From Clostridium sp. (GTDB lineage: Bacteria > Bacillota > Clostridia > Clostridiales > Clostridiaceae), in contig JARLHR010000106.1 in NCBI GenBank assembly GCA_031292145.1, positions 1 to 37,627 of the forward strand: a stretch of 37,627 nt of DNA, written 5' to 3'. Below are positions 2,744 to 33,008 of this stretch, one piece after another. The notes below the pieces were generated by a model. The model ran no database searches. It saw only the letters and a list, made by a program, of their open reading frames with translations, and was not told where the DNA came from. A program made the position numbers and the translations under genes. Every line of letters begins with the position of its first letter. Position 1 is the first letter of the stretch.

Positions 2744-3418
2744 ATGAAAACTGATTTATTAGAAAAAGGAGCAATATTACAAAGGGATAAGGAAACATAT
2801 GCAATTGCTCCACATTTAACTGCTGGAATTGTAACCCCAGATATTTTAAGAAATCTTGCGGATGTAGCTGAAAAATATAGTGCATCAGCTATTAAAGTTA
2901 CAGGAGCTCAAAGAATTGCAATAGTTGGATTAAAAGAAGAAGATTTAGATAATGCTTGGCAGGATCTAGGTATGGATCCAGGTGCCGCAGTAGGTTTATG
3001 TGTAAGAAGCGTAAAAATATGTCCAGGAACTACTTTTTGTAAAAGAGGTCTTCAAGATTCAGTAGCAGTTGGGTCAAAATTGGATGGCTTATATCATGGA
3101 AGGGAATTACCCAATAAATTAAAAATGGGAGTAAGTGGTTGTCCTCATAGTTGCGCAGATAGCGCATTTAAAGATATAGGATTAATAGGAAGTGGAAAAG
3201 GATGGATGTTTTATGTTGGCGGAAAAGGTGGAGCTAGGCCAAGAATAGCAGATAGAATAGCACTTTGTGTATTAGAAGAAAAGATATATGATTTAATAGA
3301 AAAAATTATTGAAATATATGCTGAAAATGCAACTAATAAGGAAAGATTAGGAGATTATATAGATAGAGTAGGATTAGATGAGTTTAAAAAACAAATAGAT
3401 CTTAATAGTTATTTATAG
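2744..3418 (+). CDS. stand-alone nitrite/sulfite reductase-like sirohaem [4Fe-4S] protein
   Basis: Predicted to bind coupled sirohaem and a [4Fe-4S] cluster. A ferredoxin-like half domain (residues ~10-70) precedes a catalytic-type domain with the CPGTTFC motif (Cys93, Cys99) and GCPHSC (Cys133, Cys137), the CX5C...CX3C ligand set of sulfite/nitrite reductases. At 224 residues it is about half the size of assimilatory enzymes and has no flavin or NAD domain, matching the small dissimilatory-sulfite-reductase-like proteins of anaerobes whose substrate is generally unproven. AGGAGAG lies 7 bases before ATG 2744; the GTG at 2741 is too close. It has no partner gene here, so an electron donor must be encoded elsewhere. 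Confidence 0.82.
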   Translation: MKTDLLEKGAILQRDKETYAIAPHLTAGIVTPDILRNLADVAEKYSASAIKVTGAQRIAIVGLKEEDLDNAWQDLGMDPGAAVGLCVRSVKICPGTTFCKRGLQDSVAVGSKLDGLYHGRELPNKLKMGVSGCPHSCADSAFKDIGLIGSGKGWMFYVGGKGGARPRIADRIALCVLEEKIYDLIEKIIEIYAENATNKERLGDYIDRVGLDEFKKQIDLNSYL

Positions 3419-3430
3419 ATATCCAAATGT

Positions 3431-3669
3431 GAACTTAGATTTATGTGGTGTCCTACCGAAATTCCATACATTTTTGTTCCACAGGACTATGAAATTTTCA
3501 CTGGAAGGTTCTAAGCACAAGGTTGTACCCATTTCTGCATGCTCCCAATATAAAATTGTGACAAGCAGTAAATGGTACAACCTTGTACTAAGAACCTTCG
3601 CAGTTCAATTTCAAATGCCTGTTTCACAAAAATGTATGGAATTTCTAGTTGTGATATACACTTAAGTTT
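3431..3669. mobile_element. about 240-bp palindromic MITE-like element
   Basis: The left arm (3431-3534) and right arm (3570-3669) are imperfect reverse complements. Near-perfect blocks include GAAATTCCATACATTTTTGT against its complement at 3627-3644, and AGGTTCTAAGCACAAGGTTG against 3577-3597. The loop is about 36 bases. Transcribed, it would fold into one very long hairpin. A 78-codon frame (3429-3665) spans it but only mirrors itself and has no ribosome-binding site. It looks like a non-autonomous mobile element or a relic of one; no transposase is present. Confidence 0.65.
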
Positions 3670-3673
3670 TAGA

Positions 3674-3714: not shown

Positions 3715-3746
3715 AAGGAATTGCTAATCTTAAGCAATTCCTTTTT
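3715..3746 (+). terminator. rho-independent terminator
   Basis: AAGGAATTGCT pairs with AGCAATTCCTT, followed by TTTTT. It insulates the Wadjet operon from upstream transcription. Confidence 0.85.
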
Positions 3747-3831
3747 GCATCTCAAATACAAGTAAATGTGTTAAAATATAAGAAAGATAGTATGAAGAAT
3801 GCTGATTCATTATTTTTTGATTATACTTTGC

Positions 3832-3837
3832 TATAAT
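3832..3837 (+). promoter_or_regulatory. -10 box of the jetDABC operon
   Basis: Perfect TATAAT 34 bases before the jetD start codon. No good -35 lies at the usual distance (TTGATT is only 9 bases upstream), so basal transcription may be weak or need an activator. Confidence 0.4.
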
Positions 3838-3871
3838 AGGGGAAAGAGTAGTAGTAGAAGGGTAAAAAAAT

Positions 3872-4870
3872 ATGTATGATAAACTTGTTGAATATTTAAA
3901 ATCTTATAAAAAGAAAACAATAAAATTAAGTGAATTGGAAAAATTGCCAGATGGAAGTGTGAGTTATGAGAATTTTGAGGCAAGTATAAAGAGGCTTGTT
4001 GAAGATAGTATATTAATAGAAAAAGGCAGCAAAATAAATTCTTTATCATTAAGTTATGGTGTAAATTATTATAAACTCCAGAAAGATAAAATAGATGAAG
4101 TAAATAATTATATTTTGAAGATTTCTAAAGAAATTGATTTGGGTGAGTATTTTAAATTATCTGAAGAAATATTTCATAAGGAGCTTCCGTTTATACAAGC
4201 AGTTAATGACTATATTTTAAGTAATGGTTTGCCTGAGAGCTATGTTACTTCTCAGGAAAGGTCTTTTAATATTTCAGGGGATGAAAAGTGGATAGATGAA
4301 AAGAATGGCAGAAAGATATTAGAAAGAATTAAGGTATGGGATAAACTTAAAATTGTAAATGATTCAGATCCATTAATGCTGGCTGTGAATCAAAGGGGCT
4401 TTGGGAAGCCTGTACATTATCATCTTATTGTTGAAAATAAGGCAACCTTTTTAGCTCTTATGGATATTTTAAGAGAAACTAATTATACTACATTAATTTA
4501 TGGCTGCGGATGGAAGATAGTTTCTAATTATTATATGATAGATAAACAGCTTAATTTGAATGATAAGAATGAATTTATGTATTTTGGAGATATAGATAAA
4601 GAAGGTATTTCCATATGGAATTCATTAAATGAAAAAATGAAGGTAAATATAGCTGTTGATTTTTATAGAGAGCTGCTTAAAAAAGATTATAGCATGGGAA
4701 AGAAAAATCAAAAGAGGAACGATGAAGCTATAAATAATTTTTTGGAGTTTTTTACAGAGCAAGAAAAAGAGGTTTTAGTGAACATGATAAATAATGGCGG
4801 TTATTTACCACAAGAAGGATTAAATAAAGAAGAGTTAAAAAGGATATGGAGTGGAATGTGTGAAAATTAA
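3872..4870 (+). CDS. jetD: Wadjet nuclease subunit JetD (MksG-like, TOPRIM)
   Basis: JetD is the endonuclease of Wadjet (JetABCD/MksBEFG), which cuts closed circular plasmid DNA after the SMC motor has extruded it. This 332-residue protein has an N-terminal helical/winged-helix arm and a C-terminal TOPRIM domain of the topoisomerase VI/Spo11 type. The visible catalytic set is Glu188 in VENKATF and the DxD pair Asp240/Asp242 in FGDIDKEG, all intact. The ribosome-binding site is AAGGG, 9 bases before ATG. It is the first gene of the operon and overlaps jetA by 11 bases, whereas the name-giving order places jetD last. Family assignment is firm from the motif pair plus context. Confidence 0.88.
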   Translation: MYDKLVEYLKSYKKKTIKLSELEKLPDGSVSYENFEASIKRLVEDSILIEKGSKINSLSLSYGVNYYKLQKDKIDEVNNYILKISKEIDLGEYFKLSEEIFHKELPFIQAVNDYILSNGLPESYVTSQERSFNISGDEKWIDEKNGRKILERIKVWDKLKIVNDSDPLMLAVNQRGFGKPVHYHLIVENKATFLALMDILRETNYTTLIYGCGWKIVSNYYMIDKQLNLNDKNEFMYFGDIDKEGISIWNSLNEKMKVNIAVDFYRELLKKDYSMGKKNQKRNDEAINNFLEFFTEQEKEVLVNMINNGGYLPQEGLNKEELKRIWSGMCEN

Positions 4871-6377
4871 TATAAGTAATGTAGTTGAAAATTATCATGA
4901 GAGAATTCAAAGATTAGCACTATTTGACCCATTATATGCACTTAATGAAAAAAAGCTAAAAGATAGAAGTGATAATAAAGTTGACTACTTTAGTTTCGGA
5001 TTATTAACCCTGCTATTTTTCTTTGAAAATATGCTTATTAGAAATAGAAAAGTTGGTGTTAAGGATGTAGCAGAGTACTTACAGATAGTAAATGAAGGAA
5101 AATTTGATTTGGAAAATGAAGATTTTATGAAAATAGCTAGGACAATTATAGAAACCTTTAGACCACCAACAGGAAAAAGAAATTCCAAGACATTTTATAA
5201 TTATGAGACCAGAAAAGAAGATATTGTACAATATTCTATTTTGAAAGCTGATAAAGCTGATTTAGAAACAAACACTCAATATTATACTTTGGACGAGCAG
5301 GGCTTGGAATTAATATTTGCAACTAAAGAATATTTTAATGAATTTCAATTATCAATTAACCAGCTTATACTAAGAAAACAGCTTGAAAAAGGAGAATTTA
5401 TAGGAGCGCTAAGGCAAATTGATGAGATGAATCTAGATGTTAAAAACCTTTATGACAGGATTTTTAGAATAAAGCATGAAGTTAATAGAAACATAGTTTC
5501 AAGTGAAACGTTTGAAAGATATAAAAATATCATAGGTGATATTAACGATAGATTAACTCATGAGAATGAAGAATTTGAAGAGTTAAGAACTTTTGTAAAA
5601 GACACTAAAGAAAAAATTGCTAATGAAATGAACAAGGATGAAGATAAAAAAGCATTTGAGCTCATTATAAAAATAGATAAAGAATTAGATGAAGTACACT
5701 ATGAGCATAGAAAACTTTTAAAAGAGAGTATTTTACTTAAAACTTCAGCGCTTCAGGCAGCACAGGAATCGTTATATTACATAGGGATAAATACCTTTAA
5801 CTTTAATCAGGAAATCGTAAGCAGAATTTTTTCTTCACCACTTCCATTGAATAGTACCAGAAGATTAATAGAACCATTTTTATATTTAGGAAAAGAAAGA
5901 ACGTGGTCGCCAATATCAGTGTTTTCAAAGCAAAGAATTGAGAATACTGAAAAGGAAGAGAAGAGCGATGAATTTCTAAATGTTTTAAGCAAGGAAAAGC
6001 TAAAAGAGGAAATAGAAATACAGAGTAATAAATATAAACGAGTAACAGAGGTAATATTAAAGGCTTTAAATTATAAAGAAGCTAATAATATTACAATAGA
6101 GGAATTAGTTGAGTTTATAAAGGAAAGTGATGAGGAAGATATTATTAATGAGCGTCCGTTTTATGATTTTTGGATTACTCTTCACCAAAAATCACCAATC
6201 ACAATGAAAATGGAAGATAATGAAGAAGAAGAACTTATGGGAAAAGCTTACGACATATTTTCATCAAAGGGGTACAAGTTATATGTTGAGGAATTAAATA
6301 ATGTCTTGAAGGTTACAAAGAGGTTTACTATAAAAAATATGGTTTTAAAGTTGGAGGATAAAGATGATAACTTATAA
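4860..6377 (+). CDS. jetA: Wadjet kleisin-like subunit JetA (MksF-like)
   Basis: JetA is the kleisin that bridges the two JetC heads and binds JetB. This protein is 505 residues, mostly helical, with a winged-helix-like N terminus, a charged coiled-coil middle (residues ~190-295) and a C-terminal winged-helix-like region (ending ...LYVEELNNVLKVTKRF), as expected of MksF/MukF-type kleisins. I start it at GTG 4860, 8 bases after GGAG; an in-frame GTG at 4851 adds three residues. It overlaps jetD upstream and jetB downstream (14 bases), indicating translational coupling. The sequence resembles the JetA family of Firmicutes (type II) rather than DUF3375 type I proteins; that subtype call rests on memory. 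Confidence 0.82.
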   Translation: MKINISNVVENYHERIQRLALFDPLYALNEKKLKDRSDNKVDYFSFGLLTLLFFFENMLIRNRKVGVKDVAEYLQIVNEGKFDLENEDFMKIARTIIETFRPPTGKRNSKTFYNYETRKEDIVQYSILKADKADLETNTQYYTLDEQGLELIFATKEYFNEFQLSINQLILRKQLEKGEFIGALRQIDEMNLDVKNLYDRIFRIKHEVNRNIVSSETFERYKNIIGDINDRLTHENEEFEELRTFVKDTKEKIANEMNKDEDKKAFELIIKIDKELDEVHYEHRKLLKESILLKTSALQAAQESLYYIGINTFNFNQEIVSRIFSSPLPLNSTRRLIEPFLYLGKERTWSPISVFSKQRIENTEKEEKSDEFLNVLSKEKLKEEIEIQSNKYKRVTEVILKALNYKEANNITIEELVEFIKESDEEDIINERPFYDFWITLHQKSPITMKMEDNEEEELMGKAYDIFSSKGYKLYVEELNNVLKVTKRFTIKNMVLKLEDKDDNL

Positions 6378-7098
6378 CAACGAACAAGTATTGCAGGCAT
6401 TTAAGATATATTCGATATTGGCTAAAAATGGGTATGCAGAAAAGGATGAATTACGTTTATACATATCTGATGACATGATTAGGGGCTTGGTGGATCAGTT
6501 TTCTAAAGAGGTGGATTGCACAATTTTTTTGGCGGGAGAGTTTATATATCTTATTCCTATTTCTAAGGATTCCATATTCCATGTATCTAATGAAGCTATT
6601 AAGAAGGATTATTTGCCAGCAAAATCAGTAAACTTAGATATTTATCTTATGTATGTTTCAATAATAGTGTTGTTTGGAGAATTTTATGATAGTTATCAGA
6701 CAATAGATCCGACAAGGGATTTTATTAATATTTCAGATTGGCTAGAAAGTTTAAATGAAAGAATTTCAAGTTTGAAGGAACACAATAGTGATAAATTAAA
6801 GGAATTAGATAAAGAATATGATTATAATTGGTCTTTAATTATAGAAAAGTGGCTTGATATGGATGAAATTAAAGAAACAGTTAAGGTACAAAATGCTAGG
6901 ACAATTAGCAGAAAGAGTTTTTTAAATAGTGTAAAGAACTTTTTAGAAGCTCAAGAGCTTATTAGGGATATTGGAAATGAAGAACTGGAACTTACGGAAA
7001 AAGCTAAAACAATAATTCAAAGATACTATATGGAATATGACTATAACAGGGGAATTCTTGATTTCATGTACAATCTTGATAAAAAGGAGGTTAAATAA
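6364..7098 (+). CDS. jetB: Wadjet subunit JetB (MksE-like, DUF6063-type)
   Basis: JetB is the small winged-helix KITE/MukE-like partner of the kleisin. The 244-residue protein begins with a helical/winged-helix segment (AFKIYSILAKNGYAEKDEL), has a hydrophobic centre and ends with a second winged-helix-like segment (SFLNSVKNFLEAQELI). Size, position between JetA and JetC, and the N-terminal pattern match the DUF6063 family found in type II Wadjet loci. GGAGG lies 6 bases before the ATG, inside the end of jetA. The stop codon is one base before the jetC start. Confidence 0.8.
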   Translation: MITYNNEQVLQAFKIYSILAKNGYAEKDELRLYISDDMIRGLVDQFSKEVDCTIFLAGEFIYLIPISKDSIFHVSNEAIKKDYLPAKSVNLDIYLMYVSIIVLFGEFYDSYQTIDPTRDFINISDWLESLNERISSLKEHNSDKLKELDKEYDYNWSLIIEKWLDMDEIKETVKVQNARTISRKSFLNSVKNFLEAQELIRDIGNEELELTEKAKTIIQRYYMEYDYNRGILDFMYNLDKKEVK

Positions 7099-7099
7099 A

Positions 7100-10000
7100 A
7101 TGCCAGCTATATCAAAGATAAGATTTACTAATGTAGTATATGAAAATGGACAAAAGAGATATAATGATGATATTTTTCAATTCGATGGAGAAAATGGAGC
7201 TATTCTTTTAGAAAATGGTGGAGGTAAGACCGTATTTATTCAAACAGCAATTCAAGCAGTACTTCCAAATCAGGAGCTTGCAGAGAGAAAAATTAAAAAT
7301 ACATTAATGCTTGAAAATAATTCTGCTCATATTGCAATAGAATGGATTATAAGCGAAAGGCCCAGAAGATATGCATTAACAGCAGTAACCTTGTTTATGA
7401 ATAAAGGTTCAGTAGATTCTTTAAAATATGCTTATGAGTATGAAGAAAATGATGATGAAACAATAGAAAAACTCCCTTTTAAAGTTAAAAATGCAAATGG
7501 AAATTATAGACCAGCTAATAAGGATGAAATGGAAGATTATTATTCTACTATGAATAAAAATAGAATTAATGCTAAAGTCTTCAAAATAAAACGTGATTAT
7601 CATAAATACATAGAAGATAAGTTTAAAATTATTCCAAAGGAATGGTACAGAATTGCAACAATAAATGGTGCAGAAGGTGATGTGGAAAAATTTTTTGATT
7701 CCTGCGCGACAATGGGACAATTAGTAGATAACCTGTTGATTCCAACAGTTGAAGAAGCTTTAGCAGGAGCTGGGACAAAGGAATTTGCTGAAACTTTTGA
7801 AAAACAAAGAGAGCATTTTAAAAAGTATAATCAATTAAAGGCCAGAATAGATGAAAGCAGACAAGTTGAAAATGAAGTTGGAACATATATAGGTCGTTAT
7901 AAAGAATATGATGAGATAAATACTAAAGTAATAGAGACGAAGGAAGAGCTTAAGGCATTATATGAATTAGCTAGGGAAGAACAAGAGTTAAATAGTGAAA
8001 AGCTTTCTAAAATAAGCAGTGAAATATCTGGTGTAAATGCCAGTGATGAATATTTAAAACAAAAGGAAGCTTCTTATAAATTGGCACTTTTAGAAAAAGA
8101 TATGCAGCTTAGGAGTGGGCTTTTTAAAATCAAAGAAGATGAATATAATAAAATTTTAAATAGAAAACTTGAAAAAGATAAAAGATATTCGAATTTGAAG
8201 GTTTTAAAGTATAAAAATGATATAAAGCAGGAAGAAGAATTAGTAAAGCTTAATAAGGTTCAAATTGAAAATTTAGATAAAGATGAAGAAGTCTCTGATA
8301 TTAAAGATGACTTAGAGATGAATGCAGGTGAAATAAGAGGATATTACCTAGAAGAGGGAGATAAACTTAATAAGCAGATTCAGTTTATAGAAAGTCAGAT
8401 AAATACAGAAAATAATGAAATAGTTGAAAAGGAAGAGTTATTGCAGGAAAAAGTAAGGAATGAAAAAACTTTAGAAAGTAGTAAAAGTAATTTGGAAGGT
8501 CAAAGCAAAACTATTGAGGAAGATATTCAAAGGATAAAAAAAGAAATTTTATTTGACGAAAAACAAGAAAATGTTGAAGACAAAAATATTGAATGGAAAA
8601 ATAACTTATCAGAATTAGAGGATAAAATTTTTAATAATAATAAAAAGCAAAGTGAATTAACTAACGAAGAAATTCAAGTGAAAAACTCATTAGATAATAA
8701 ACGTTTAGAATATGAGGGATTTAAAGAGCAAGGCATAGAATTAAATGCAAAATTAGATAAAATAAGAGACGAAGAAGAAGTTTTAATAAGAAGATTAAAG
8801 GAATTTAAAAATAGTTTTTATGGCGTAGAATCTTTGTATGCTAAAGAAGCGAGTATAATAGATCAGTTAGAAAATTCTCTTGAAAAAGCTAGAGAAAGTA
8901 AAGAAAAAGCTATCCTTGAAGAGAGAATTTCATATAGATGGCTTGATGATTATAAGGAAAGTGAATATTATACAGCAGATGCAGCTATAGAAAAATGGCT
9001 CGCCTCTTGGAGAAATCAATTTGATTACATAGAAAGTGGTACTACGTATATTCAAAGAGTAGCAAAAAGCAATCGCGTTTCTGAAGAAGTTTATTTTGAA
9101 AAATTCCCGTATTGGGTAATAACCTTGGTGGTTTCTGGGAAAGAAAAAACAAAGTTAAATGAAAAGATAAGTAAGAGCTTAGATAAACTAATAAATCCCG
9201 TGATAGTTTTAGATGAAAAAGAGGCTAGGGATATATTGACTGATGATAAAGATTTTAATAGAGATAATATTTTTGTTCCATCTCCATGGAAAGATAATAT
9301 TTCACAGAATTTTTTTGAAAGCTATAGAAAAGATATAAGTGAAAAAGCTGAAGAAATAAAAAAACAAAGAATAGAAAAGGAAAATGAATATATAATTACT
9401 GAAGCTTTATTAAAGGATTTGAGAAAATTTTATAAGGAAAATTCATATGAAGATTTCAGTAATATGAAAAAGCAGTTTGAGGAAGTAAATTTAAATAAAA
9501 GTTTAGCTGAAGATGCTATGAAGCAATTTGAAGGAAGATTAGAAGGTATTAAGATAGAATTTAAGAAAATAGATGCAGAACTTTCAAATTGTAAGGAAGG
9601 AAAAGTAGATTTAGAAAAGAAGATTGAAAAAGCTAACGAGTATTTTAATAAAAACAATAAGAACAAAAAGCTTATTATTGAAATTAAAAAGCTAAAAGGT
9701 GAAATCGAAATTTTAAGTATTGAAATTAAAAAAATTCGAAGTGATATTAAATATAAAAATGGACTTAAGGATGAACTAAATGGTGAATTAAGCAGAATTA
9801 AAAATAGCAAAGATAATGTTAAATTAAAAGATTTTTATGAGGAAGTTAAAGGAAGCATACCTAAAAGCTCTAATAAAACTATAGGGACTTTAATTGATAT
9901 CAGAAAAACTTTAAAGGATAAATTGGACAACAAGCAGAAAAATAGAAAGAGTTTAGAAGATGAGTTTAAGGAAAGACAAAAAAGAATAAAGTCACTATAT

Positions 10001-11536
10001 AATGATTTGGAAAACTTTAAAAATGAATTAGATTTTCATATAGATGAGAATTTTAATGATGTAATAAGTGAAGATGAGCTTAAAAGGCTTATTATGGAAA
10101 GAAGCGAACTTAAAAAGATTTTGAAAACTAAGGAAGATGAATATAATGGCGCAAGAGACAATTATAAAGACAGTGAAAAGACCTATGAGGTTAACAGGAA
10201 TATTTTCAACGAAACATTCGAAAATATCATAATATTTAATGAAGCCTTAGAAGAAGTAGAAGAATTGTTAAATAATGAGAAAAAGGTTTTAAGTGAAAAG
10301 ATAAAGAAGCTTAAAGGTGAAGAAAAGAGATTAAGTGAAGAAAAATCTGAATTAGATAAAGTTATAAATAACTTAGAATTATGTAATGCAAGATATTCAT
10401 TTTTAAATGAAGCTATAAAAGATATAGAACTTAAAGATGAAGTGAAAAATAATTTTTCATATAAGAGAAAAGAAATAGTAGATAAAATTTCTAATTACAT
10501 AGCTAAATTTCAAAAACAGTTAGATGAAAAATATAAAGAAACTGAAGAACAAAAGGAAAGATTCTTAAACTTCTGTGAAAATAAAATTTTAGATGTTAAA
10601 TTGAAGAAAATGGCAGTTGATGGTGTTAATTTTAGGAAAAGCTATAAGGACATTATTGAATGGCAGAATATAATGAGTGAACGTATAAATAAAACTATTG
10701 AAATACTAGAGAATGACATGCGTGAACATGATGAAGAGATGAAGCAGTTTATTAATCACCTTCATTCATATTTAGTGATAATGGCCCAAGAATTAAAAGC
10801 AATTCCAAAGAAAACTAAGATTAAAGCTGATGATAATTGGAAGGAAGTTTATTTATTTAATATACCTGAATGGAATGAGAAAGATGGAAAAATAGAGCTT
10901 TATAACCATATAAATTGGATACTTAAAAAGCTTGAAGGCGAAGAATACAGGGATGAAAATGGAGTTGAAAATCAAGAAAAGGTTAAAAAGTCTATTGAAA
11001 AATGGCTTCAATCAAAGCAGCTGCTTCCAATTGTAATGAATCATAAGAAGATAACTGTAAAGTGCAGAAAAGTAACTAATGATGGTAAAATGAGCAGTAT
11101 GCCATTTTCCTGGGAAGAATCTAATTCGTGGTCTGGAGGAGAAAAATGGAGTAAAAACATGGCTTTATTCTTAGGAATACTCAACTATGTTGCTGAAAAA
11201 AGAAAGCAGATAATTCCATTAAAGAGCCATTACAGAACAGTTATTGTTGATAATCCTTTTGGTAAAGCATCAAGTGATCATGTACTCGATCCAGTATTTT
11301 TTATTGCGGAGCAGTTAGGTTTTCAAATTATAGCTCTAACAGCACATGCAGAAGGAAAGTTTATAAGAACATATTTCCCTATTGTATATAGCTGCAGGCT
11401 TAGAAGCAGTGAAAATGGAAATAGTCAGATTATAACCAATGATAGAGAAATTAAAAAAGCATTTTTGAAGGATGCTGATTCAGAAAAGTTAGAAAGACTT
11501 GGACAAGTTAGTCAAATTACGATGTTTGAATCTTAA
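7100..11536 (+). CDS. jetC: Wadjet SMC ATPase subunit JetC (MksB-like)
   Basis: JetC is the SMC-type motor that extrudes DNA loops and brings the circle to JetD. The 1478-residue protein has an N-terminal half-ATPase head with Walker A ENGGGKT (Lys43, Thr44), long Glu/Lys-rich coiled coils (about 225-610 and 735-1270), a globular hinge near 610-735, and a C-terminal half-head with signature WSGGEKWS (residues 1344-1351), Walker B VIVDNPFG (Asp1384) and an H-loop-like TAHAEGKF. The Walker B glutamate position is Asn1385, and the first Gly of the canonical P-loop is Leu. AAGGAGGTT is 7 bases before ATG 7100; an upstream in-frame ATG at 7037 lacks a ribosome-binding site and lies in jetB. Type I JetC proteins are shorter. 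Confidence 0.9.
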   Translation: MPAISKIRFTNVVYENGQKRYNDDIFQFDGENGAILLENGGGKTVFIQTAIQAVLPNQELAERKIKNTLMLENNSAHIAIEWIISERPRRYALTAVTLFMNKGSVDSLKYAYEYEENDDETIEKLPFKVKNANGNYRPANKDEMEDYYSTMNKNRINAKVFKIKRDYHKYIEDKFKIIPKEWYRIATINGAEGDVEKFFDSCATMGQLVDNLLIPTVEEALAGAGTKEFAETFEKQREHFKKYNQLKARIDESRQVENEVGTYIGRYKEYDEINTKVIETKEELKALYELAREEQELNSEKLSKISSEISGVNASDEYLKQKEASYKLALLEKDMQLRSGLFKIKEDEYNKILNRKLEKDKRYSNLKVLKYKNDIKQEEELVKLNKVQIENLDKDEEVSDIKDDLEMNAGEIRGYYLEEGDKLNKQIQFIESQINTENNEIVEKEELLQEKVRNEKTLESSKSNLEGQSKTIEEDIQRIKKEILFDEKQENVEDKNIEWKNNLSELEDKIFNNNKKQSELTNEEIQVKNSLDNKRLEYEGFKEQGIELNAKLDKIRDEEEVLIRRLKEFKNSFYGVESLYAKEASIIDQLENSLEKARESKEKAILEERISYRWLDDYKESEYYTADAAIEKWLASWRNQFDYIESGTTYIQRVAKSNRVSEEVYFEKFPYWVITLVVSGKEKTKLNEKISKSLDKLINPVIVLDEKEARDILTDDKDFNRDNIFVPSPWKDNISQNFFESYRKDISEKAEEIKKQRIEKENEYIITEALLKDLRKFYKENSYEDFSNMKKQFEEVNLNKSLAEDAMKQFEGRLEGIKIEFKKIDAELSNCKEGKVDLEKKIEKANEYFNKNNKNKKLIIEIKKLKGEIEILSIEIKKIRSDIKYKNGLKDELNGELSRIKNSKDNVKLKDFYEEVKGSIPKSSNKTIGTLIDIRKTLKDKLDNKQKNRKSLEDEFKERQKRIKSLYNDLENFKNELDFHIDENFNDVISEDELKRLIMERSELKKILKTKEDEYNGARDNYKDSEKTYEVNRNIFNETFENIIIFNEALEEVEELLNNEKKVLSEKIKKLKGEEKRLSEEKSELDKVINNLELCNARYSFLNEAIKDIELKDEVKNNFSYKRKEIVDKISNYIAKFQKQLDEKYKETEEQKERFLNFCENKILDVKLKKMAVDGVNFRKSYKDIIEWQNIMSERINKTIEILENDMREHDEEMKQFINHLHSYLVIMAQELKAIPKKTKIKADDNWKEVYLFNIPEWNEKDGKIELYNHINWILKKLEGEEYRDENGVENQEKVKKSIEKWLQSKQLLPIVMNHKKITVKCRKVTNDGKMSSMPFSWEESNSWSGGEKWSKNMALFLGILNYVAEKRKQIIPLKSHYRTVIVDNPFGKASSDHVLDPVFFIAEQLGFQIIALTAHAEGKFIRTYFPIVYSCRLRSSENGNSQIITNDREIKKAFLKDADSEKLERLGQVSQITMFES

Positions 11537-11568
11537 GTAATTTTTTTGTACAAGGTTTCAGGAGCTAT

Positions 11569-15041: not shown

Positions 15042-15860
15042 GTGTACACTATTGGGCAGTTTTCTAAAATTGGGAGAGTTTCAACTAAGACACTCCGTTA
15101 TTATGATGAGATTAATCTGTTAAAGCCTGTGCATGTGGATAAAGATACTCAGTATAGATATTATTCATATGAACAAGTTTTAAAACTTCTTTCTATATCT
15201 GAATTAAAAGAATATGGCTTAAAATTAGAAGAAATTAAAGCTATTATGGATGAGCAAGATGTTGACTTACTTAAAAAGTTTCTAAAGAACAAAATTGTTG
15301 AAATTGATAAGGAAGTTGAAAACAGTTTGAAACTCAAAGATTCTATTGAAGAGAAAATTAAGAAAATTGAGTCAGGAGGTAATATTATGGAAGGTAAAAA
15401 GGATTTAAAAGTTGAATTGAAGGAAAGACAGCCATTAGTTGTTATTAGCAGGAGAACAATCACAAGTATGAGTAATATAAGTAGTGTTATTGGAAAGGTA
15501 TTTGAGGATATTTTTAGAATGAATCTTAAGCCAGTAGGACCTGTAATGACAATTTATCATGATAAACAAGAATTTGATGTTGAAAATGCAGATTGTGAGA
15601 TTTGTATTCCAGTGAATAGTAAGGTAAATACGGAAAAAAACGAAAAGATAAAGGAATTGGCAGGAGGACTAGTTGCATCTACAACTTTTGTGGGGCCTTA
15701 TTCAAAGCTTGGAGAAGCTTATGCTAAAGTCATGCAATGGATTGAGGACAATGGGTATAAATGTTCTGGGGCACCTTTTGATATTTATTTGAATGGACCT
15801 CAAAGTGTTAAAAGTCCAGAAGAATTTGTAACAGAGGTTTGCTTTCCAATTAGTAAATAG
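15042..15860 (+). CDS. MerR family regulator with GyrI-like effector-binding domain
   Basis: Predicted drug- or small-molecule-sensing transcription factor of the BmrR/BltR kind. Residues 1-70 are a MerR winged helix (YTIGQFSKIGRVSTKTLRYY), followed by a dimerising coiled coil (~75-110) and a GyrI-like domain (~120-272) with the closing CFPISK. Start is GTG 15042, 8-9 bases after AAAGGAG; the MYTIGQ opening fits the family. No efflux gene adjoins in the same direction, so its target beyond its own promoter is not visible. The neighbouring helD relic may mark loss of a former partner gene. Confidence 0.9.
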   Translation: MYTIGQFSKIGRVSTKTLRYYDEINLLKPVHVDKDTQYRYYSYEQVLKLLSISELKEYGLKLEEIKAIMDEQDVDLLKKFLKNKIVEIDKEVENSLKLKDSIEEKIKKIESGGNIMEGKKDLKVELKERQPLVVISRRTITSMSNISSVIGKVFEDIFRMNLKPVGPVMTIYHDKQEFDVENADCEICIPVNSKVNTEKNEKIKELAGGLVASTTFVGPYSKLGEAYAKVMQWIEDNGYKCSGAPFDIYLNGPQSVKSPEEFVTEVCFPISK

Positions 15861-29645: not shown

Positions 29646-32600
29646 ATGTTTTTTAGTAAGGTGATTATGGATAAAAAGAATTTACTTGAAGAATTAGATT
29701 CACTAGGATATTCAGATAGAGCAAATAGAATGGCAATATTAGGCCGGGATAATGAATCAAAACAATATTCAAAATTGCTTTCTTCATTATTAGAAGGAGG
29801 TGCTTATGAAGCCAGTCTTGCATTAGTTGGAGCAGGTGTAACAAAGGAATCTAAGATTATATTATCGGCATTAAAGCATCCAGCACCTAGCATCAGAAAT
29901 AAGGCGGCAGGGCTTTTAGCAAAAGTGGCATCAGATAGTGATATTGAAGGTGAAATTGTAAATTTATCTTATGATTGCCGCCGTAAATTATTGCATAGTA
30001 TTGCAACTATAAATCGTCAGGAGGTGGCGGATAAATTATTACCTTTTGTGTATTCAAAATGGGGAGCCAAAGAAGCGGTTATTTTATTACCAGCGTGTTC
30101 TAAAGAAAATGTTACAAAGTGGATTTCAGATATAGGACATGCAATAATTAATTGGTGTAAATTAGCGGTTCGTCATTCTGATATAGTTTTAGAATATTTT
30201 AAGACATCTTTAGAGAAAGCACCAATGGGGAAAAGGATTTATGTTTGGTATAGATTTTCATCTGCAATTGAAACATTATGTATATCAAAAGCAGATTTTA
30301 TATTAGATTATGCAATAAACTTAGGGCCAACGAATGTAATATGTTTAGGATTAAAAAGAGAGTTGGGTACGCTAGTTCGTATAAGTCCTGATAAGGTATA
30401 TATATTACTGACTACAAATGAAACGAGAAAAGAACTGCTTTCCCATGGTGTACCAGATAGTATTTTGAAAAGAAGAAATTATTTATCAAAAGACCAATGG
30501 ATTGGAATTGCAAAATTGCTAGCTGATAGTCCTTCACATATAGCAAAATTACTTCACCATATGGAACCTTCAAATAGGGAAGAGATTTTTGAAGCTGTAT
30601 ATGAAGAAGATAAACGCAAAGTACGAATTTTTTCAGAAGCTGCATTATATGAATTACCAAATAAATTACGTGATAAGGAAGCCGCTAGAATGCTTGGACT
30701 TCGAGGAATATATGATAACAAGGAAAAGACTATTATGATTACTGCATGTCGTCATATTGATAATTCAAGGGAAATTCTTCAAAAAGCAGTACAAGCATCA
30801 AATGCAGATGAACGTGCAAGGGCACTTGTGCAGCTAATCAAGAGTACAGCATTATCAAGACAAGGTGTACATGATACATTAATGTTTTTGGGCCGTATCA
30901 AAAATGATCAAGATCCTGTGCGAAATGCTGTTTTTAATGAACTTTCTAATTGTCCTCCTTCTATTTTTACAGATGATAATATAAAAGAATTTACTTTGCT
31001 CGTTGATAGTATCATTGAAGCCAGAGATACTTCCTATGGAACACTTTCAACAGCTCAAAAATTAGCATTTAACCTTATGAGAAATAATGCATCAAATTCT
31101 CAAAGTGAGATTTTTAAATTCTCTATAAGTACAATTCTAAAGATCGCTAAAAAGACAGGACAGCTTACACTGCCAGCACTTGATAAAAATTTACCTAAAG
31201 GTGTAGAAAAGATACTTTTTGAAGAATTTTATAAGCTAGCTGTTGAAGCCAATAAAAGAGAAAATTACAGCTTTGTGATTTCTTTAGCAGCTTCATTAGG
31301 GAAAATGGGGTACAACATAGTAAAACTCCAAGATTTGTTAAAGGAAGCAATAATGGCAAAACCAGGGTCTATAGCAGTACAAGCAGTAAGACATTGGCTC
31401 GCAGATAAAAGAACACGTGATGAAAGAGTTAAAGAATTGCTAACTTTGGATAAATCAGCTATTACAATAAGTGAAGTATTTTTACATTTACACTATAGAC
31501 GTCAGGAATGGCTAGATCCATTTATTTCTGGAAGTGTTATTAAAGGCAAGTTTTTAACTGGTAAAACAATTTATGTTATACCAGCTGAAAATGGATTTAA
31601 TAGATGGCTTCCTCGTCAACAAAATGCTTTAGGAATTATGCTAGAAAAAATTGCACTTGATTCTAAACGCAGTATATGGGAACGTTCTAGAGCTATAAGA
31701 ATAATTGCAGGGATACCTGATTTTACTTCAAATAAAATAGCTGAACTTTTAAATGATAAAGAAGTGGCAATAGTAGAAGCTGCACTTCATGGATTATCAC
31801 TAACACAAGAGCCTGAAAAGGCACTTTCAGTTCTATTGGAAAATTTAGATGGAGATAGAGCTCGTGTAGCAATGTATTCTATACCTAGATGCATTCGTAA
31901 AATGAATCCAGAATTAGTAACTTCAATGCTTAAGGAACTTTTAAAAAGAGATAAACTTAAAATTACTGTTAGAAAAGAAGCTATTAGGTTACTTGGGACT
32001 TGTAAAACCAATGAGAGTATTTTACTACTTATAAATGAGTTTGAAAAAACAAATTTGCATAAGGATGTGATAATTGCTATAGGACATGCAGCGAGAGAAT
32101 TTTTAGATGATGAACGTGGATGGAATATTTTAAAAACAATGGCATCTTCATCTCAAGGTGATGTTGTAAAAAGTCTGTTATATCAAGGGCCTTATGAACT
32201 TCCAGAAGAATATAGGTCTCGATATTTAGAGTTAATAATTAAAATTGCGAATCATATAGATGCAGAGGTTGGAAAAGAAGCTTTTAGTGCTATGAGACAA
32301 TGGACAGACGGAAATGAAGATATAATTGCTGTTACTGCTGCAAAGGCTATTACTAATCTTGAGGATACTATCAGATGGAAGGCAGCAATGAATGTTTTGA
32401 TAGAAACATGTCGTGATGGTAAGGTTAATAAATATGTTATAAGCATCTTTAAAGAGTTATCTAGTGCAATAATAAGGGATGATTGGAATGCTGGTAACGA
32501 AAGAGATTTACCTCACAGGCAGCGTTTAATAAAATTAGCGGATAGACTTATAGCGTTACCAAACCTTGCACGCTTAAAGCTTACTGATTTATATATGGAA

Positions 32601-33008
32601 ATTATCGATTGCCTTGCATTAAATGAAACACTAAAATATGTTTTGGCAAGATTTTATCTAGCAGCAGTTGATTGGAATAATGTAGAGGAATCTATTAGTT
32701 ATATAAGCAATATTGCAAGTTGTATTAAGGATCAACCATATTTTATGAATAAAGTATATAAAGACATTTCAAAAAATTTAAAAGATGCTAAAGGGTATTG
32801 GAATCCTGAGACAATGTTACAAATTGTAGATGCAATATGGTCTAAAGACTGCTATGAAGCTCAATTTATTACTCTTTCTTTACTTGAAGATGCTGGAAGC
32901 GCTTTATTGTGGAGCGATGATTGTGCACATCGTTTAAGATTATACAGAGATCATACTAATATTAATATTCGTTCACTTGCGTTAGATATTTGGACAGCAA
33001 TAGACTAA
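29646..33008 (+). CDS. very large HEAT-repeat-like protein of unknown function
   Basis: A 1120-residue soluble protein made almost wholly of helical pairs. Several segments have the HEAT pattern of proline or charged residue, hydrophobic helix and invariant R/K, such as [15 protein letters not shown] (~80), [12 protein letters not shown] (~405), [14 protein letters not shown] (~710), [13 protein letters not shown] (~740) and [12 protein letters not shown] (~775). There is no signal peptide, membrane helix or catalytic motif that I can see. Such solenoids act as protein-protein scaffolds. GGGAGAGG precedes ATG 29646. It probably follows the PfpI-like gene in one transcript and ends at a strong terminator. 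Not recognised as a named family. Confidence 0.82.

Follow-up and report, generated by a model that had tools for sequence, protein, structure and literature searches.

An intact type III Wadjet operon in a Clostridium genome, with asparagine at the Walker B glutamate position of its SMC subunit

Three types of Wadjet were reportedly defined by Doron et al. in 2018, and type III is said to have been tested against plasmid transformation in that work. Wadjet type II comprises four subunits. In motors of the structural maintenance of chromosomes (SMC) family the glutamate of the Walker B motif serves ATP hydrolysis; Lamassu is a further SMC-like defence, in which we know of no kleisin. Here we examine a jetD-jetA-jetB-jetC operon of Clostridium sp. 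that lies in a stretch of 37,627 nucleotides (contig JARLHR010000106.1 of assembly GCA_031292145.1, positions 1 to 37,627), referred to below as the window. Wadjets of types I and II extrude plasmid DNA and then activate the nuclease JetD (PMC12647877), and cleavage requires ATP together with a working JetC ATPase (PMC10586767). Deletion of the native jetABCD locus of C. cellulovorans raised conjugation by about five orders of magnitude; this is a Clostridium Wadjet with a measured effect on plasmid conjugation, but its order is jetA-B-C-D, its authors compared it with the B. cereus Q1 system, and its membership of type III is not established (PMC12287153). The Lamassu ATPase LmuB resembles the JetC described here in that its Walker B glutamate is replaced, by glutamine, which was taken to suggest low or no hydrolysis. 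It differs in its size (about 650 residues) and in acting with LmuA and LmuC (PMC10586767).

Positions 3872-11536 of the window hold, on the forward strand, four intact and tightly packed open reading frames without internal stops, encoding a TOPRIM nuclease, a kleisin, a small subunit and an SMC ATPase (Table 1). The genes lie where an earlier, sequence-only reading had placed them, with overlaps of 11 bases (if jetA is read from GTG 4860; GTG 4851 is also possible) and 14 bases, followed by a gap of 1 base. The start of jetC at 7100 has AGGAGG directly upstream and coincides with the beginning of the profile match; on these grounds a longer frame from 7037 was rejected. For every subunit the top PADLOC profile is that of type III (JetD3, JetA3, JetB3 and JetC3), with E-values from 4.9e-98 to 0, and the four-gene observation is therefore beyond chance. 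JetD scores 326.6 bits with JetD3, against at most 35.9 with JetD1 and 32.4 with JetD2, while JetA, JetB and JetC had no match to the type I or II models at E ≤ 0.01. The operon had been labelled type II from the sequence; the profile search of the four proteins moves it to type III by a wide margin. The protein lengths and the gene order of the lineage are likewise those of type III. Pfam matches over cut-off were to JetD_C, DUF2399 and DUF6063, with nothing over cut-off for JetA or JetC, and none of the four proteins had an NCBIfam match over cut-off. We conclude with considerable confidence that this is a type III Wadjet operon, intact and probably gained by horizontal transfer, which would restrict plasmids. 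It is a complete and ordinary type III Wadjet, one more copy of a known defence, and in its sequence we found nothing that sets it apart from other members of the type.

The nuclease residues Glu188, Asp240 and Asp242 were located as had been claimed, and are identical in all 53 aligned JetD sequences, that of the window included. Together with Gln314 and Glu315 they are also kept in 34 of 34 JetD sequences drawn from the three types (7 type III, 15 type II and 12 type I). An AlphaFold2 model of JetD, made with 26 of the 53 sequences, has a mean predicted local distance difference test (pLDDT) of 90.7 and a predicted template modelling score (pTM) of 0.57. Seven solved structures matched it at E ≤ 0.001, headed by 8b7f, a nuclease from C. 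glutamicum (E 1.1e-7). The rest belong to topoisomerase VI, one of them under the bare title 'intact type II DNA topoisomerase'. A search of solved structures by sequence gave no usable match for JetD. The model is TOPRIM/topoisomerase VI A-like, which speaks against a non-TOPRIM fold for the 332-residue protein; with this predicted fold and its Glu, Asp-x-Asp and QE residues JetD matches a Wadjet nuclease.

The SMC subunit was compared across the types. Type III was represented by 105 loci, i.e. the window, L002-L086 and L136-L154; beyond the window, 55 were collected by JetB, 30 were the best of 103 matching genomes among 398 (many matching over the coiled coil only), and 19 were stretches picked from that list. 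Five could not be read at Walker B because of contig ends or the lack of jetC (L032, L040, L042, L044 and L050). The 100 readable loci represent 98 distinct C-lobes, and some come from the same genomes (e.g. L139 and L039, or L140 and L037). The controls were the loci of the best-scoring matches to one JetD1 model (12 for type I, from 65 matching genomes of 199 searched) and one JetD2 model (15 for type II, from 83 of 299), so that their types were assigned by JetD alone. A separate alignment of type III JetC used single-frame loci only, leaving out L033 and L048, and 3 of its 51 rows are gapped at Walker B. In the Walker A comparison 3 of 12 type I and II loci had no frame containing the motif and were left out. 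We note that jetC is broken into more than one frame in L033, L048, L086 and L150, which are either decayed copies or sequencing errors.

The C-lobe of JetC (residues 1189-1478) was modelled with 45 of 71 sequences, giving a pLDDT of 82.1 and a pTM of 0.69. JetC and JetABC entries (among them 8dk3, 9qxx, 9qxu, 8as8, 8dk2 and 8q72) account for seven of seven matches to solved structures at E ≤ 0.001, followed by MukB. Searched by sequence, the solved structures gave no usable match for JetC, and the C-lobe profile found only a weak SMC match (E 0.86). The earlier reading of the four genes as a Wadjet operon is thus upheld by four profile matches, by the JetD fold and by the fold of the JetC C-lobe. 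In the model a strand ends at Asp1384 and is followed by Asn1385 at the Walker B position; the canonical glutamate is therefore missing from the window copy. The JetC head otherwise carries the Walker A lysine, the signature serine, the Walker B aspartate and, for the C-lobe, a fold like that of other JetC proteins.

The substitution is a property of the type. Walker B is Asp-Asn in 99 of the 100 readable type III loci and Asp-Ala in the remaining one (L056), while Asp-Glu was seen in none; Asn1385 is also invariant (48/48) in the separate JetC alignment. By contrast Asp-Glu is present throughout the controls, type I (12/12) and type II (15/15) alike. The D-loop aspartate, seven residues past Walker B, is found in all 27 type I and II loci; at this position the 98 distinct type III C-lobes have serine in 89 and another residue in eight, with one unread, and aspartate in none of the 97 read. 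The first glycine of Walker A is replaced by leucine, isoleucine or methionine in all 47 type III sequences that are ungapped at this position, and is kept in the aligned sequences of type II (5/5) and type I (4/4). On the other hand Lys43 of Walker A is retained in 47 of 47 readable type III sequences and the signature Ser1345 in 48 of 48, and because of this ATP binding looks selected. These comparisons suggest that the change in type III is confined to the motor and is old within the type, and that the asparagine itself looks selected. The Walker B glutamate characterises the loci of types I and II studied here (27/27), and the literature read does not treat it as defining a Wadjet. No account of the type III substitution was found in the literature searched, which is weak evidence since most subscription papers were outside its reach. 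L056 (5545-13390), with the only Asp-Ala JetC, belongs to Clostridium yunnanense, where it is the second, and a distant, type III-like operon beside L009.

On the model of types I and II, the JetC, JetA and JetB subunits would assemble into an SMC complex that detects small circular DNA and passes it on to JetD for cleavage. Type III probably restricts plasmids as other Wadjets do, but judged by its motifs it hardly works by textbook ATP chemistry. Since its JetC lacks the Walker B glutamate, the D-loop aspartate and the first Walker A glycine, the ATP cycle probably differs from that of types I and II. With the glutamate lost, either the general base of type III would lie elsewhere or fast hydrolysis would be dispensable to it. 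We consider it somewhat the likelier option that hydrolysis of ATP persists, be it slow or through a general base at another site, and that DNA is still moved; the lesser, but still substantial, chance goes to an ATP-binding latch with little or no turnover.

Several points weigh against the reading of this operon as a type III Wadjet that restricts plasmids, or against parts of it. No account of a working mechanism for type III was found in the readable literature, and according to a 2023 review most research has concerned type I, with types II and III still to be characterised (PMC10586767). The predicted folds cover JetD and the C-lobe of JetC only, of four subunits, and their template modelling (TM) scores from Foldseek are low (query-normalised, 0.33-0.40 for the seven best matches of JetD and 0.33-0.47 for those of the C-lobe), so that the fold matches of both rest on the E-values; for JetD the low scores may reflect domain movement. 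Beyond the invariant serine, the signature motif varies in the wider type (Gly1346 in 41 and Gly1347 in 45 of 48 sequences), and the Asp-Ala of L056 indicates that asparagine is not absolutely needed.

The alternative that survives best concerns not the identity of the operon but the way in which it works. If type III is a working Wadjet, there is in our estimation a little short of an even chance that it is a whole branch of SMC complexes that has lost the textbook ATPase site, i.e. an ATP-binding sensor that clamps DNA and licenses JetD without sustained loop extrusion driven by hydrolysis. More tentatively still, the SMC subunit could be a natural hydrolysis-poor sensor, in which the heads would close on DNA once ATP is bound, and the complex, thus closed, would switch on JetD while loop extrusion is slight or absent; such a mode has been suggested for Lamassu. 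Such a sensor is consistent with the loss of the three motor residues and the retention of the ATP-binding residues and the nuclease site. It would have parallels in the putatively hydrolysis-defective glutamine of LmuB (PMC10586767) and in MksB, where the Walker B Glu-to-Gln substitution E1042Q impaired the ATPase activity (PMC10123090). Yet the four subunits are the same as in the Wadjets that extrude DNA, and measurement of circle size by extrusion would need many cycles of ATP. The general base may also have moved: Glu181 (47/48) and Glu192 (48/48) are conserved in type III and unseen in the nine aligned type I and II sequences, in a region where the alignment between the types is weak. 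From sequence conservation these two glutamates may be regarded as a lead only.

The arrangement of the genes bears on the remaining alternatives. The sequence-only reading had remarked that the nuclease gene leads the operon and that JetC is long. Both are so, but neither is special to this copy. The order D-A-B-C occurs in all 51 four-gene relatives among the 55 loci fetched with the JetB protein (L002-L056); of the others, L028 and L031 open within the operon, L050 stops short of jetC, and L014 (C. zeae, 6500-9000) has jetABC of the present lineage with an unrelated frame in the place of jetD, possibly through decay or reuse of the SMC part. A further 19 type III stretches include four fragments; of the 15 that remain, eight have jetD first and three have it after jetC (L141, L143 and L144). 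The gene was not seen in four (L138, L142, L146 and L147), where profiles built from close relatives may miss a distant jetD. All 27 control loci (12 type I and 15 type II) have jetC immediately upstream of jetD and in the same orientation. To judge from these loci, nuclease-first is usual in the present lineage, but neither absolute in type III nor strictly diagnostic. As to length, the 1478 residues of JetC are usual for type III, where the profiles have 1451-1494 positions, and type II is similarly long, with frames of 1357-1420 codons from stop to stop (6 loci). We note that in C. puniceum (L003, 9720-9916) about 180 bases of extra DNA, hairpin-like by eye, lie between jetB and jetC.

A role in chromosome organisation, as a condensin of the MukBEF/MksBEF kind rather than a defence, is very improbable. 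The C-lobe model matches MukB too, and L014 suggests that the SMC part may act alone there. However, the operon contains a nuclease with a conserved site, among 68 genomes from the genus just 4 have a close jetB, and the flanks differ in the three nearest relatives. A condensin lacking a nuclease, named beforehand as one of two refuting outcomes, is rejected on the nuclease gene in the operon, with its residues and predicted fold. Most improbable of all is Wadjet type II, which shares the long JetC, the same nuclease residues and a weak JetD2 match, but which is outscored by type III for all four subunits and at the loci examined places jetC before jetD and has Asp-Glu at Walker B (15/15), neither of which applies here.

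Type I (E. coli, P. aeruginosa and the MksBEFG of C. glutamicum) is alike in its four subunits, its nuclease residues and its JetC C-lobe fold, and differs in the placing of jetC before jetD, in Walker B Asp-Glu (12/12), in the first Walker A glycine (4/4 aligned) and in longer JetD frames (403-460 codons in the 12 best); type II differs from the window in the same glycine (5/5 aligned). Lamassu was rejected on the size of the window JetC compared with LmuB, and no Lamassu model was among the PADLOC matches.

For jetB the nearest relatives with a name come from Clostridium sp. LS, Clostridium sp. C2-6-12 and C. puniceum, at 93-95% identity, in keeping with a Clostridium host. DNA homology with the three nearest relatives ends at 3740 and 11563, inside the available flanks, and the flanks are unrelated. 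The 4 genomes with close jetB (at least 93%) include the host; distant jetB is present in 11 more. In Clostridium the operon, with its patchy jetB and a homology that stops at these limits, is probably a mobile cassette. Nine congeners share the siroheme-protein gene on the upstream side at 88-92%, and the downstream gene reaches 78% at best; an empty insertion site was sought in congeners and no junction was identified. The C-lobe of type III JetC was found in one of 72,556 plasmid records (an 898-kb Pontibacillus plasmid, 28% query cover) and in none of 50,697 phage records, both at E 1e-5 and with limited reach to distant members. When the DNA of window positions 1-25000 was compared with plasmids, a single record matched, beneath the siroheme gene. 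A search of the host genome (6.34 Mb in 282 contigs) with the Rep3_N profile found nothing while its control was positive, which does not thereby show that plasmids are absent.

The genes around the operon look unremarkable and include those for a GGDEF protein, a protein with a siroheme-type reductase domain and a sugar-binding protein, with genes of metabolism farther away. None of 10 neighbouring proteins had a convincing match to a defence system in PADLOC. The sole matches, a stretch of 50 residues resembling mad1 (38.6 bits) in a MerR-type regulator at 15042-15860 and a marginal one to KwaB, were read as a common helix-turn-helix and not as defence. At 29646-33008 lies a protein of 1120 residues whose sole Pfam match at E ≤ 1e-5 is to HEAT repeats (36.0 bits, cut-off 27.7), and which has no PADLOC match. 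The repeat upstream of the operon is palindromic (single-strand fold z -10.9); the host genome contains three more copies of it, at 94-97%, and congeners carry it too. It has no match in Rfam at gathering scores, and is probably a neighbour and not a part of the operon.

Table 1. Positions of the operon genes, their motifs and adjoining features in the window
Feature	Position	Strand	Description and basis
jetD	3872..4870	+	First operon gene, TOPRIM nuclease, 332 residues; PADLOC JetD3 PDLC00592, E 4.9e-98, 326.6 bits; Pfam JetD_C 45.1 bits (cut-off 22)
jetA	4860..6377	+	Kleisin by profile, 505 residues from GTG 4860; PADLOC JetA3 PDLC00566, E 6.2e-222, 735.9 bits
jetB	6364..7098	+	Small subunit, 244 residues; PADLOC JetB3 PDLC00575, E 2.3e-121, 402.1 bits; Pfam DUF6063, 2.5e-96
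jetC	7100..11536	+	SMC-like ATPase, 1478 residues; PADLOC JetC3 PDLC00582, 1753.2 bits
JetD Glu188 codon	4433..4435	+	Conserved TOPRIM Glu; alignment
JetD Asp240-x-Asp242 codons	4589..4597	+	Conserved TOPRIM Asp-x-Asp; alignment
JetD Gln314-Glu315 codons	4811..4816	+	C-terminal QE motif common to types I, II and III; 34/34 sequences
JetC Walker A	7208..7231	+	Residues 37-44, Leu37 for the first Gly, Lys43 kept; alignment
JetC ATP-binding cassette (ABC) signature	11129..11149	+	Residues 1344-1350, SGGE core; alignment
JetC Walker B Asp1384-Asn1385	11249..11254	+	Glu at the Asn position in types I and II; alignment and C-lobe model, end of strand 191-196
Outer limits of DNA homology	3740..11563	+	Against the three nearest relatives L002, L003 and L022; DNA comparison
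Interspersed palindromic repeat	3414..3671	.	Adjoins the operon; repeat copies and single-strand fold

The main interest of this locus lies in the comparison that it prompted: a whole type of defence has replaced the glutamate of its motor while keeping the ATP-binding residues and the nuclease site. If the SMC subunit of type III is indeed a sensor that turns over little ATP, it would be a natural counterpart of the Glu-to-Gln mutants made in the laboratory, and recognition of plasmids would be separable from ATP-driven extrusion. Whether a complex of the asparagine type can extrude DNA bears on the role of ATP hydrolysis in SMC defences that measure DNA.

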